From the NCBI GenBank assembly GCA_030630425.1, contig DAOVNB010000003.1, positions 1-17,951 of the forward strand: 17,951 nucleotides of DNA, written 5' to 3'. The notes under the pieces were generated by a model. It ran no database searches. It was not told where the DNA came from and was given only the letters and a program-made list of their open reading frames with translations. Source of the DNA: an archaeon (lineage in GTDB: Archaea > EX4484-52 > B79-G9). The translations under genes and the position numbers were made by a program. Of this stretch, positions 1,660 through 17,951 are shown piece after piece (position 1 is the first letter of the stretch; the number at the start of each line of letters is the position of its first letter).

Positions 1660-2060
1660 GTTTGTATATTGGTTCTATCGTTCAGGCATAAGCGCCCACA
1701 TCCTAGGATAGAATTCATACCACCTTGTTTCGACCTCGACCTAAACAATGTCGCTTGCGCTCCAATGTCTTCTAGCTTAGCTCGAAGAGGGCGGGGTTTG
1801 TTTGGTTCGGTGGTAAGCTTTTCGGAAATCTGCTTCGCATATTTCCTGCATTTCCGAAACCCTTAAAATTCTTCGGAATTTTAGGGTCCAAAAAATCTTA
1901 AAGGATTTTTAAGGATACAGGAAATTCACGAAGTGTATTTCTGAAATTTCAATAAGCCTTCATCTACGGTCTAAAGGTCATCTCACTAAAGTTCGAAGCT
2001 TTTCGACCAAAGGTCGAAAACCGTAGTTTTCGGCTCAGTTGAAAATAATCAATACATACA
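1660..2060. other. Hairpin-rich non-coding block (structured RNA or long rpl15e leader)
   Basis: No convincing coding frame covers the 453 bp between rpl15e and the next gene. Complementary pairs seen by eye (coordinates on +): 1673-1679 with 1707-1713; 1718-1724 with 1809-1815 (TACCACC/GGTGGTA); 1820-1829 with 1850-1859 (10 bp, perfect); 1865-1871 with 1876-1882 enclosing TTCG (a C-UUCG-G tetraloop on the + strand); 1891-1897 with 1904-1910; 1920-1929 with 1933-1942; 1964-1970 with 2020-2026; and 2000-2008 with 2012-2020 (9 bp, loop AAA). The last two share one base. The tetraloop favours a + transcript, but a TATA-like box at 2074-2081 on the minus strand would make this a leader of rpl15e. 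I looked for RNase P, SRP and 5S signatures and found none that are convincing. Confidence 0.5.
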
Positions 2061-2073
2061 TGGTGTATAGAAG

Positions 2074-2081
2074 ATTTAAAT
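2074..2081 (-). promoter_or_regulatory. TATA-like box upstream of the structured block and rpl15e
   Basis: The minus strand reads CTATTTAAATC here, just beyond the stop of the 2101-2484 gene. Transcription from it would begin near 2050 and run through the hairpin block into rpl15e, giving an unusually long (~400 nt) archaeal leader. Confidence 0.35.
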
Positions 2082-2100
2082 AGTTTATCGTAGTTTTACG

Positions 2101-5720: not shown

Positions 5721-5785
5721 TTATATATTTTTCTGCACCGTCAGACAATTTAGTCTGCAAGCAAAAAAAACAAAACTATATATAA
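5721..5785. promoter_or_regulatory. Divergent promoters with a central dyad between the Cys-rich gene and tfs
   Basis: On the minus strand AAATATATAA (5721-5730) serves the 5698 gene. On the plus strand TATATATAA (5777-5785) serves tfs, predicting a start near 5807. Between them CAGAC-AATTTA-GTCTG (5742-5757) is a 5-bp inverted repeat that could bind a regulator common to both promoters. The dyad is short and could be chance. Confidence 0.45.
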
Positions 5786-5834
5786 TTTAGCATACAATGT
5801 GTTAAAATTTTACAATCCCCCCAGGTGATGCGAA

Positions 5835-6164
5835 ATGAAATTATGTGATAAATGCGGAACACTTATGAGCCCTTACAAACACAACAATAAAGTAACGCTT
5901 GTGTGCCCTAAATGCGGCAAAAAAGCAGCAATAGAGAAAGGCACATCATTCAAGATAACTGAAAAAATCAACCACACCATAAAAGATACTATTGTTGTGA
6001 ATGAAAATACTAAAATGACTCTCCCCACAACAAAAATAGACTGCCCCGAATGCGGACATAAAGAAGCCGGCTGGTGGACACTGCAGACAAGATCATCTGA
6101 TGAGCCTGAAACAAGATTCTATCGCTGCACCAAATGCAGGAACACATGGAGAGAATACAGCTAA
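5835..6164 (+). CDS. tfs: Transcription factor TFS (TFIIS/RPB9-like)
   Basis: A 109-residue protein with two zinc ribbons. The N-terminal ribbon has C4-x2-C7 and C24-x2-C27. The C-terminal ribbon has C70-x2-C73 and C98-x2-C101. Between the last two pairs is the acidic hairpin tip D89-E90 in RSSDEPETRFYRC. The DE pair is what stimulates transcript cleavage by RNA polymerase in TFIIS and archaeal TFS, so this is an active cleavage factor and not just an RPB9-type subunit. A strong AGGTGATG ribosome binding site (5823-5830) fixes the start. It is the first of three same-strand genes (tfs, OB-fold protein, pcna), a linkage found in several archaea. Confidence 0.95.
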   Translation: MKLCDKCGTLMSPYKHNNKVTLVCPKCGKKAAIEKGTSFKITEKINHTIKDTIVVNENTKMTLPTTKIDCPECGHKEAGWWTLQTRSSDEPETRFYRCTKCRNTWREYS

Positions 6165-9682: not shown

Positions 9683-9734
9683 CGCATTGCATTCTTTTGG
9701 AGTTGTTATGCTTATAGATATTATTTAGATTAAC

Positions 9735-9745
9735 AAATTTATATT
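9735..9745 (-). promoter_or_regulatory. TATA box for the HTH-PAS-GAF regulator
   Basis: AATATAAATTT on the minus strand predicts a start near 9715 and a leader of 33-42 nt. Its upstream edge is fused to the first ATTGATGAGC repeat. Confidence 0.5.
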
Positions 9746-9757
9746 GATGAGCTATAG
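9741..9757. promoter_or_regulatory. Operator-like repeat 1
   Basis: ATATTGATGAGCTATAG matches copy 2 at 15 of 17 positions. It abuts and slightly overlaps the regulator's TATA box, where a bound protein would block TBP/TFB or recruit them. Its start is 25 bp from the start of copy 2. Confidence 0.55.
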
Positions 9758-9765
9758 TTTTGATT

Positions 9766-9782
9766 CTATTGATGAGCAATAG
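9766..9782. promoter_or_regulatory. Operator-like repeat 2, perfect 6-5-6 palindrome
   Basis: CTATTG-ATGAG-CAATAG is an exact inverted repeat with a five-base spacer, a typical footprint for a dimeric helix-turn-helix protein. It lies just upstream of the regulator promoter. Confidence 0.6.
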
Positions 9783-9849
9783 AGTTCGAGCAGGTTTATA
9801 TATGATTCATTTAATTGATAAAAAACAGTAATTTAAGCATAAAAAACCA

Positions 9850-9861
9850 AAAAATATATAA
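9850..9861 (+). promoter_or_regulatory. TATA box for the interrupted frame at 9897
   Basis: AAATATATAAAG on the plus strand predicts a start near 9880, exactly inside operator-like repeat 3. Occupancy of that repeat would then repress. Confidence 0.45.
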
Positions 9862-9876
9862 AGATTGAAAAAAGTA

Positions 9877-9893
9877 ATATTGATGAGCAATTA
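9877..9893. promoter_or_regulatory. Operator-like repeat 3
   Basis: ATATTGATGAGCAATTA matches copy 2 at 14 of 17 positions, keeping the ATTG-N5-CAAT dyad. It is centred on the predicted transcript start of the plus-strand frame at 9897. Confidence 0.55.
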
Positions 9894-9896
9894 GTT

Positions 9897-10148
9897 ATGG
9901 TTCGCTATACCTATTTGCTTAAGCGATTATATCCCACCGATATAACCTTCAGAGAATTTGATGTCTCGGCAGGCCAGAAGTAAAATTCTCCTGCCGTTGC
10001 ATCCTATTATTCTAAAAGAGTTTATGTGATTAGTGCACCCCATTTCGATAGCGAGAATGTTAATTTTTCTAAAATCATGAAACCTCTATGTAGCCCCATC
10101 CTAAATAATTACTGGCAGCAAACGATTGAGAAAAGCAAAGTCGCATAA
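9897..10148 (+). pseudogene. Winged-helix-like small protein interrupted by an in-frame TAA
   Basis: One reading frame of 84 codons starts at ATG 9897. It encodes 28 residues ending FDVSAGQK, meets a TAA at 9981-9983, then continues open for 54 codons (NSPAVASYYSKRVYVISAPH onward to IEKSKVA) to a TAA at 10146. The combined sequence around the stop (ITFREFDVSAGQK, stop, NSPAVASYYSKRVYV) resembles the helix-turn-helix and wing of small archaeal DNA-binding proteins, with the stop falling in the turn. The promoter and operator upstream are intact. The likeliest reading is a recent nonsense mutation in a small transcription factor. A sequencing error or genuine expression of two peptides are alternatives. 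The family call is tentative. Confidence 0.5.
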
Positions 10149-10162
10149 ACATTTAAATGTTT
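10147..10162 (+). promoter_or_regulatory. thyX TATA box inside a perfect 16-bp palindrome
   Basis: AAACATTTAAATGTTT is an exact inverted repeat whose centre (10154/10155) is 25 nt before the thyX ATG at 10180. It therefore serves as the TATA element of a leaderless transcript and is symmetric enough to be a repressor site. It also contains the stop codon of the interrupted upstream frame. Confidence 0.55.
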
Positions 10163-10179
10163 AACAAGAACATTTTGTC

Positions 10180-10881
10180 ATGAAAGCCACACTTCTAAAG
10201 CACACTGCTGATGCTGAAAAACTCGCGGGTGTTGCCGCTTTTACATCGTGTTCCCCTGAAGGCTCAGACGAATTGATGAAAACAAAAACAAAAGATGAAT
10301 GCGACAAATTCCTGAAAAGAGTTCTTAATTATGGGCATCATTCCGTAATAGAGCATGCAAGCTTTACTTTCAGTGTTGAAGGAATATCCCGCGCATGCAC
10401 GCACCAGATTGTTCGCCACAGGATTGCCTCATACACCCAGCAGAGCCAGAGATATGTTAAATTCAAGGAACTCGGGTTTGTTATGCCCCCGTCAATAGAA
10501 AAAAATGAAGAAGTAAAAAAAACATACTTAGAAGCTATGAAAAATGCATCAAACGCATACGATAAGCTTATAGAATGCGGAATTGCACCGGAAGACGCAA
10601 GATATGTATACCCCAACGCATCACACACAAACATCATGATTACAATGAACGCGCGCGAATTGTGGCATTTCTTCTCGCTTAGATGCTGCACAAGAGCGCA
10701 GTGGGAATTACGGGAAATTGCGGAAAAAATGCTTGCTGAAGTAAAAAAAGTTGCACCTCTTCTTTTTAAGGATGCAGGAGCATCATGTGTTCGTTTAGGA
10801 TACTGCCCTGAAGGCTCTCTTGGATGCGGCAGATACCCAACATTAAAGCAATTAAAGGAAAAAGAGGCAATTAAATGTTAG
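10180..10881 (+). CDS. thyX: Flavin-dependent thymidylate synthase ThyX
   Basis: A 233-residue protein with the ThyX signature RHRxxSxxxxSQRY, seen as RHRIASYTQQSQRY at residues 79-92. It is preceded by NYGHHSVIEHASFTFSVEGISRACTHQIV, the usual FAD/dUMP-binding helix and strand. A later conserved segment (MNARELWHFFSLRCCTRAQWE) supplies further dUMP contacts. ThyX methylates dUMP to dTMP using methylene-tetrahydrofolate (or an analogue) with FADH2 and NADPH, replacing ThyA. Its last codons overlap the start of glyA by seven bases, so the two are translationally coupled. The start is set by the TATA box 25 nt upstream. The C-terminus (SCVRLGYCPEGSLGCGRYP) is rich in cysteine, as in several archaeal homologues. 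Confidence 0.95.
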   Translation: MKATLLKHTADAEKLAGVAAFTSCSPEGSDELMKTKTKDECDKFLKRVLNYGHHSVIEHASFTFSVEGISRACTHQIVRHRIASYTQQSQRYVKFKELGFVMPPSIEKNEEVKKTYLEAMKNASNAYDKLIECGIAPEDARYVYPNASHTNIMITMNARELWHFFSLRCCTRAQWELREIAEKMLAEVKKVAPLLFKDAGASCVRLGYCPEGSLGCGRYPTLKQLKEKEAIKC

Positions 10882-17563: not shown

Positions 17564-17588
17564 TATAACTTATTTTATGCCCTTGACC

Positions 17589-17604
17589 ATATATATATAT
17601 ATAT
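17589..17604 (-). promoter_or_regulatory. (AT)8 tract as TATA box of the beta-helix gene
   Basis: Sixteen bases of pure AT alternation, ending in TATTTTCGG on the + strand, lie about 60-75 nt upstream of the proposed ATA start. This is the only TATA-like element in the gap. The simple repeat could vary in length by slippage and so alter promoter strength. Upstream of it TTTCGGA (17606-17612) and TCCGAAA (17632-17638) form an inverted repeat. Confidence 0.4.
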
Positions 17605-17663
17605 TTTCGGAAGTTCGGAAAAAATTAGTATCTCCGAAAGTAAATTATAAATAGCGCCAACTC

Positions 17664-17879
17664 TTAAGTTATTAACAGAAAAACAACAACAAGGGGGATT
17701 CTTATTTGTCCGGTGTCTGTCACTTCAAGCGAAGGATAATTATGCGCTCCTGAAAGCTCACATACAGTATCTACAACACACGCAACGCCATCATTACAAG
17801 AACAGTCTACTGCCGAAACAAATCCCGCACTTGCTAAAATCCCTGCAGACAAAACCAATAAAAACAATATTTTTTTCAT
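17664..17879 (-). pseudogene. Truncated paralogue of a secreted repeat protein
   Basis: A 71-residue frame with a textbook signal peptide (MKKILFLLVLSAGILASAG, cut after FVSA), then DCSCNDGVACVVDTVCELSG and EVTDTGQIRIP, ending in a hydrophobic LVVVFLLIT. Reading on in the other frames gives no recognisable continuation. The N-terminal layout (signal, Cys pairs, start of a strand-rich repeat) parallels the gene downstream, and the two leaders are alignable (AATAATATT, G-run, TTTTTAT[G/A]AAAA). I read this as a copy cut off at the beginning of its repeat domain, or a very short secreted peptide. It has a good GGGGTG ribosome binding site five bases before the ATG and a TATA-like AATATATAC near 17914-17922. 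Confidence 0.55.
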
Positions 17880-17923
17880 AAAAACACCCCAAAATATTAT
17901 TGGGTTCTATGACGTATATATTA

Positions 17924-17942
17924 TTTTAGAAAAATTCTAAAA
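17924..17942. repeat. 8-bp inverted repeat at the right edge
   Basis: TTTTAGAA-AAA-TTCTAAAA forms a hairpin next to the TATA-like element of the truncated secreted gene. Read on the minus strand it is followed by T-poor sequence, so it is more likely a regulatory dyad than a terminator. What lies beyond 17951 is not visible. Confidence 0.4.
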
Positions 17943-17951
17943 ATCCCACAC

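Follow-up and report, generated by a model that had tools for sequence, protein, structure and literature searches.

What is the gene-free, multi-helix block upstream of rpl15e, the gene for 50S ribosomal protein L15e, in this archaeon? The window, that is, the whole stretch of DNA analysed, comprises 17,951 nt. The initial annotation, made from the letters alone, took positions 1660-2060 for a candidate new structured RNA, either an independent ncRNA or a structured leader regulating rpl15e. We are highly confident that the block is one copy of a small interspersed double-hairpin mobile element, non-autonomous, of Aenigmatarchaeota-type archaea. This confidence applies to the identity of the element and not to the enzyme that moves it.

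Layout of the element

The annotated block is real and needs trimming: ~1672-1713 is a separate leader, and the element ends at ~2044-2048. The features are listed by position and strand; model scores are those of the covariance model R1 described below.

189-340, plus: decayed remnant(s) of the element family; ATCATGAAACTT at 189-200, model match 263-340 (30 bits, E 0.00046)
766-842, plus: weak decayed remnant of the element family (22 bits, E 0.013)
1066-1647, minus: rpl15e (50S ribosomal protein L15e)
~1672-1713, minus: conserved rpl15e leader, TTCTATCC TAGGATGTGGGC..GCCTGAAC GATAGAA, outside the element
1714-2044, plus (family orientation): complete mobile element (331 bp), 3' edge placed to within ~4 nt in an A-run; supported by the G001 empty site and the covariance model
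1714-1871 and 1714-1831, plus: covariance-model matches to the window copy
1714-1815, plus: hairpin 1, closed by TACCACC (1718-1724) and GGTGGTA (1809-1815)
~1746-1787, plus: module in the hairpin 1 loop, CAATGTCGCTTGCG...CTCGAAG
1815-1819, plus: AAGCT, the junction from hairpin 1 to hairpin 2, at which module b has entered repeatedly
1820-1946, plus: module b, TTTCGGAAAT...TTTCTGAAA, 127 bp, between the two hairpins
1860-1914, plus: module d, two tandem hairpins including the UUCG hairpin at 1865-1882, inside module b
1947-2044, plus: hairpin 2, TTTCAATAAGCC ... GGCTCAGTTGAAA
~1975-2019 (edges approximate), plus: module e, GGTCATCTCACTAAAGTTCGAAGCTTTTCGACC..., in the hairpin 2 loop
2073-2083, minus: TATA-like box CTATTTAAATC, presumed rpl15e promoter
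10074-10183, plus: apparently truncated element copy, ATCATGAAACCTCTATGTAGCCCC..., with a model score of only 8.7 bits (E 3.4)

Read in the family orientation, ATCAT...GAAAATRA, the element lies on the plus strand; the window copy begins TTCAT. The base of hairpin 1 is GAAACC/GGTTTC in most other copies read and TACCACC/GGTGGTA in the window, which is a compensated change; a bare relative of this subfamily with the same kind of change is G003:C151. With filters off, the covariance model also gave a separate match in the second half of the element (1925-2048) and a doubtful match at 5751-5849 (E 0.4).

Folding and known RNA families

All complementary segments quoted in the initial annotation lie where it placed them, among them AAAATTCTTCGGAATTTT at 1865-1882 and the two strands closing hairpin 1. 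Its claim of strong structure also holds: segment 1650-2095 beats 100 of 100 shuffles in folding on each strand (z -5.0 plus, -6.2 minus), and the element alone (1714-2048) reaches z -6.9. The block is not unique in this, as the non-coding stretches 672-1060 (z -4.5) and 9700-10170 (z -3.7) also fold well; these two are not clean controls, because weak or truncated remnants of the element family lie inside them. The stretch 17570-17951 has z -0.4.

The initial annotation saw no RNase P, SRP or 5S signature in the block. An Rfam scan of the whole window found no family at gathering score. Permissive matches within the block number 19; most are to microRNA precursors, meaning long hairpins, and score well under threshold. 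We also weighed an H/ACA-like guide RNA and dropped it, ACA being absent after hairpin 2 in the copies read. The list of open reading frames has one mechanical frame across part of the block, of 95 aa on the plus strand (1579-1866), which enters rpl15e antisense. A sigma-70 promoter scan returned no sites, using a bacterial-type model that is uninformative for an archaeon.

Copies in the genome and in relatives

Positions 1640-2110 were used to search G000, the draft genome to which the window belongs (973 kb in 191 contigs, 75% complete). This gave 16 further partial matches at 69-97% identity; as there are two in each of C84, C34 and C29, the number of places is ~13. In the common unit, ATCAT precedes a hairpin with GAAACC/GGTTTC at its base, and the linker AAGC leads from there to a second hairpin, which ends ...GAAAATRA. 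In its bare form it is ~120 bp, two tandem hairpins linked by AAGC. No gene was present inside any copy read, so we take the unit to be non-autonomous.

Counts of the start motif ATCATGAAACYT are 17 in G000 and 16 in G004, and its reversed control is absent from both. Among the 17 sites in G000, one (C32) has no element, two are the window's own remnants and 14 are complete copies. Five of these 14 are bare (118-121 bp) and nine carry inserts (160-356 bp); C7 and C178, both bare, have common flanks and may be one locus assembled twice. Across genomes, the motif was found in 33 of 61, with 0-4 per genome outside the family when counted as motif occurrences, and the reversed control gave one match in each of 4 genomes.

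We built R1 from 11 hand-picked bare copies, excluding the window copy, which it then finds at E 3.1e-6. At E <= 0.01, R1 has matches in 14 of 61 genomes, mostly of the archaeon's own family. The counts are 23 in G000 (including four training copies and one opposite-strand overlap), 8 in G001, 1 in G002, 14 in G003, 22 in G004, 12 in G006 and 0-2 in other family members; elsewhere, G016 has 4, and G014, G033 and G045 have one each. The bare 118-121 bp copies and the R1 matches thus describe a dispersed palindromic element of ~100-150 bp.

Some draft contigs end in or at element copies: L276 (G003:C18 end), L080 and L109 (G003:C124 start) and L271 (G003:C5 end). The element family may therefore interrupt assemblies, in which case the counts given here could be too low.

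In two genera, an element copy apparently occupies the same site with near-identical flanks (L265 in G004:C183 and L283 in G005:C121). This looks like an old insertion, a transfer or cross-binning. A viral carrier was also considered and set aside, three exact element patterns having no matches in IMG/VR contigs.

The rpl15e site

Two genomes of the same genus, G001 and G003, differ from the window at this site. In G001 the site is empty: GGATAGAA runs directly into ATAATCAATAC with nothing between, and window positions 2043-2100 are identical to G001 over 58 bases. G003 has a bare element at the same rpl15e site, cut by the contig end inside hairpin 2. The window copy holds three inserted modules, one of them with a fourth inside. 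A single site thus shows the succession from empty through bare to nested. At the rpl15e insertion a target duplication of up to 4 nt is allowed.

We read 30 rpl15e upstream regions of at most 170 bases each, the window's included. The block stands at the same position only in the window and in G003, which does not support a conserved rpl15e leader. By eye, a decayed family member was recognised at another position, between leader and rpl15e, in two genomes, G010 and G007, the latter with additional inserted sequence; none was seen in the upstream regions of G005, G008 and G009. R1 at E <= 0.01 missed the G007 and G010 copies.

An independent ncRNA gene is not supported either, given the same sequence at many unrelated places and the intact empty site in G001. 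The initial annotation had named homologues lacking the complementary pairs as evidence against its proposal; G001 is such a homologue, and most of the 30 rpl15e upstream regions read are without the block at this position.

Stem covariation

For hairpin 1 we aligned 21 copies from five genomes (21 of 24 extracted rows), chosen by a pattern that fixes the ends of the outer helix (helix 1) and leaves the inner helix free. Pairing holds in 89% of cells, and 9 of 15 pairs have changed on both sides. None of 500 shuffles reaches the observed pairing, both-sided count or covariation score, and two reach the number of pair types. Pairing falls to 53-59% when the partner columns are shifted by one. 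The both-sided changes comprise six inner-helix pairs and three outer-helix pairs, the latter all from one copy, G003:C151; within the inner helix, pair 25-34 fails to form in 12 of 21 copies.

Hairpin 2, in 15 hand-picked copies, pairs in 88% of cells with 12 of 15 pairs changed on both sides; no shuffle in 500 reaches the pairing or the both-sided count, and one reaches the number of pair types. The pairing percentages of both hairpins lean towards the structures, because these were read from individual copies. Part of the covariation could come from arm-to-arm conversion.

Covariation of the stems had been proposed as a check on the structured-RNA reading. The stems do covary, but as a property of the element family and not of rpl15e leaders. 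What survives of that reading is a real structure, covarying across copies and probably within the rpl15e 5' UTR; the independent ncRNA and the conserved leader are not supported.

Nested modules

Seven occurrences of module b were read, and in each its removal restores a junction like that of a bare copy, exactly or with a single differing base. Its flanks in the window are AAGCT and TTTCAATAAG; in G000:C30 it lies in the opposite orientation at the same junction. All seven junctions fit insertion without target duplication. Three exclude a duplication longer than ~1 nt; for the four at AAGCT, a reading in which 2-4 bases are shared is also possible. At the module b junctions, then, the constant target-site duplication characteristic of DDE-type MITEs is not seen.

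The other modules, too, are present in some copies and absent from others. Module b is found without module d in L041, L054 and G003:C158. The hairpin 1 loop module is present in G000:C84 and, diverged, in G004:C122, and is missing from the G003 orthologue. The hairpin 2 loop is bare, without module e, in G000:C29 and G003:C151. Compared with its counterpart in C7, the inner part of hairpin 2 in C30 agrees at 30 of 32 bases in inverted orientation and 20 of 32 in direct orientation.

Copies inside genes

We tested 28 copy rows and found five within long open frames, two of these five being orthologous. The in-frame hosts are a U32-type protein in G000, together with its orthologue in G003, a protein of unknown kind in G000:C20 and, in G004, the phenylalanyl-tRNA synthetase beta subunit (PheT) and a RaSEA-like radical-SAM protein. 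By NCBIfam, PheT scores above its curated cut-off and the U32-type and RaSEA matches below theirs. Element-encoded residues ~284-323 of the U32-type query are missing in the orthologues of G002, G005 and G013. The PheT insert lies between two conserved blocks whose spacing is nine residues in the solved chain 2cxi_A and 42 residues in the query. The element has thus entered conserved genes in frame, in the U32-type gene and in PheT. A similar element-encoded peptide, HETSVRP..G..GSVSS, recurs in L190, L263 and L252.

A separate observation concerns tRNA-Ala genes whose T loop seems to be interrupted: L305 at 807-933 (G000:C167), L307 from 1441 (G008:C151) and L315 (G004:C129). The insert in G000:C167 is 54 nt; the joined halves are recognised as tRNA-Ala(CGC), and the gene as it stands is not. 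This insert and module e have GTTCGAAGCTTTTCG in common, and our first impression was of an element insertion. A tRNA intron with element-like sequence seems likelier, because L307 and L315 have insertions at the same place, and the interruptions are possibly non-canonical tRNA introns. Against an intron, ARAGORN calls L315 an uninterrupted tRNA-Ala(GGC), and likewise L308 and L309.

The neighbouring leader and promoter

Between the element and rpl15e lies a conserved leader that is found upstream of rpl15e in many relatives, with the consensus C(C/T)(C/T)AGGATGTGG ... GCYGAACGG. As a pattern, written after the sequences had been read, it matches 16 of the 30 upstream regions, against 0 of 6000 mononucleotide shuffles. 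The leader core is present in the window, G001, G003 and G030, but these four deviate from the pattern in its last bases. The core GGATGTGG..CTGAAC agrees with the consensus of RF03144 (eL15-Euryarchaeota), at 14.6 bits against a gathering score of 33.7, and an Rfam scan of 18 relatives' loci gave no match at E <= 5. The pattern's presence in 16 of 30 regions suggests that an RF03144-like r-leader family may extend to Aenigmatarchaeota.

The apical part of this leader varies in length: 80 nt in G004 (L093), 36-55 nt in G013, G024, G027, G031 and G032, and 10-11 nt in G005, G008, G009 and G010. The rpl15e leader thus tolerates insertions.

On the far side of the element stands the presumed promoter. 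A TATTTAAA box lies upstream of rpl15e in five of six relatives checked (G001, G008, G009, G014 and G030; not G005), 80-117 bases from the gene and 42-58 bases from the leader core in those five. The window has the element between this box (2073-2083) and the leader. As the box lies just beyond it, the block is probably inside the rpl15e 5' UTR; judging from the positions of box and leader, the rpl15e transcript probably begins with the element.

Mechanism

On our reading, the element inserted at the start of the rpl15e 5' UTR, between the presumed promoter and the conserved leader. It then gained hairpin modules in the hairpin 1 loop, at the hairpin junction (with another inside) and in the hairpin 2 loop. 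Any effect on rpl15e would be a side effect of a long structured 5' UTR.

As to what moves it, we tentatively favour a trans-acting enzyme that recognises folded hairpins and not a fixed sequence, acting most likely on single-stranded DNA. Compensated stems of variable sequence point to recognition of folded hairpins. Modules inserted in both orientations at hairpin junctions, without a constant duplication, point away from DDE transposases and toward a route through single-stranded DNA or RNA. Fold recognition on a single strand would explain all three: the compensated stems, the both-orientation modules and the lack of a constant target duplication. HUH-type transposases, as in IS200/IS605, act on single-stranded DNA. 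A Y1 transposase (PF01797) as the driver was rejected, having no match in G000-G008; this absence is weak evidence because all are drafts (the window's own genome being 75% complete). PF01797 was matched in 7 of 34 genomes, six of which have 0-1 R1 matches and one (G016) 4.

A broader proposal is more doubtful. These elements may form a previously undescribed class of fold-recognised DPANN mobile elements that grow by inserting hairpin pairs into hairpin pairs, in either orientation and without constant duplication, driven by an enzyme on single-stranded DNA or RNA and entering both genes, in frame, and mRNA leaders.

We consider it unlikely that the unit is a classical MITE moved by a DDE transposase via terminal inverted repeats. 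The ends, ATCAT and ATRAT, do resemble a short inverted repeat and the rpl15e site allows a duplication of up to 4 nt, but the ends span only ~5 nt, the stems differ among subfamilies with pairing kept, and the module b junctions either exclude a duplication beyond ~1 nt (three of seven) or fit none (the other four).

RNA-mediated spread, as suggested for Allomyces mitochondrial double-hairpin elements, also seems improbable to us. It would account for stem covariation together with the lack of a constant target duplication, the same argument that the available text of PMC2800124 makes for Allomyces; the both-orientation module insertions are equally compatible with DNA.

That the repeats are kept for host benefit, as terminators, mRNA stabilisers or tolerated peptide inserts of the sort proposed for REP/BIME, is in our judgement quite unlikely. 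The similar peptide encoded by in-frame copies (L190, L263, L252) would suit such a role, as would a terminator-like hairpin at 2000-2020, except that this one site in the region compares with 0.6 expected by shuffling; the lack of a Y1 transposase match in G000-G008 also speaks against it.

Very improbable is a structured 5' leader or independent ncRNA regulating rpl15e, which strong folding, covariation across copies and a location between promoter-like box and gene would favour, since the empty site in G001 largely refutes it, among the upstream regions read the block recurs at this position only in G003, its sequence lies at many unrelated places including the inside of genes, and rpl15e has a separate conserved leader.

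Relation to known elements

Rickettsia palindromic elements (RPE) are dispersed, ~105-150 bp long and lie in frame in genes, according to the available parts of PMC2229807 and PMC10969869. Protein-coding palindromic repeats of Methanocaldococcus jannaschii (Suyama et al. 2005) are known to us as cited in PMC2229807. Going by these descriptions, both are like the present family in being dispersed palindromes inserted in frame. The present family differs in having two tandem hairpins with a fixed junction, nested modules and another host lineage.

Hairpin-forming repeats of mitochondria (Allomyces, sponges), some of them double hairpins, lie in intergenic DNA and some genes, and for the Allomyces double hairpins a lack of duplications and an RNA route are discussed, as far as the accessible text of PMC2800124 goes. 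Two tandem hairpins also form the unit here. The differences are the archaeal genome and the extensive compensated changes in the stems. In our copies, modules are nested in hairpin loops and junctions; the word 'nested' is absent from the accessible wording of PMC2800124, which is one paper only.

REP/BIME/REPIN sequences are, like the present elements, mosaics of short palindromes in intergenic DNA, from what is available of PMC3116915, PMC2817692 and PMC3733652. In contrast to REPIN/BIME with RAYT, the drafts G000-G008 have no match to a Y1 (RAYT-type) transposase. A GTAG tag marks typical REPs.

The RF03144 leader, as presented in the available part of PMC7247131, shares the core GGAUGUGG..CUGAAC and the place upstream of rpl15e with segment 1672-1713. 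The host here is not a euryarchaeon, and the likeness concerns the element's neighbour and not the element. The element itself (1714-2044), in the 30 upstream regions read, is not a conserved motif of rpl15e orthologues, as an RF03144-type leader would be.

The literature covered archaeal palindromes, Aenigmatarchaeota repeats, protein-coding palindromes and DPANN MITEs; in the portions available to us, mostly outside subscription journals, this element family is not described. The general kind is already known, and the combination of tandem double hairpins, nesting and host group is new.

Implications

To a structure scan, elements of this sort look like new regulatory RNAs. In the present case, strong folding plus covariation did not suffice to tell a mobile palindrome from a functional RNA; it took the orthologous empty site to do so. 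The series of empty, bare and nested states at one site is a direct record of element growth. Protein-coding selfish DNA is best documented in Rickettsia. In-frame copies in genes as conserved as a tRNA synthetase suggest that small archaeal genomes tolerate it too.
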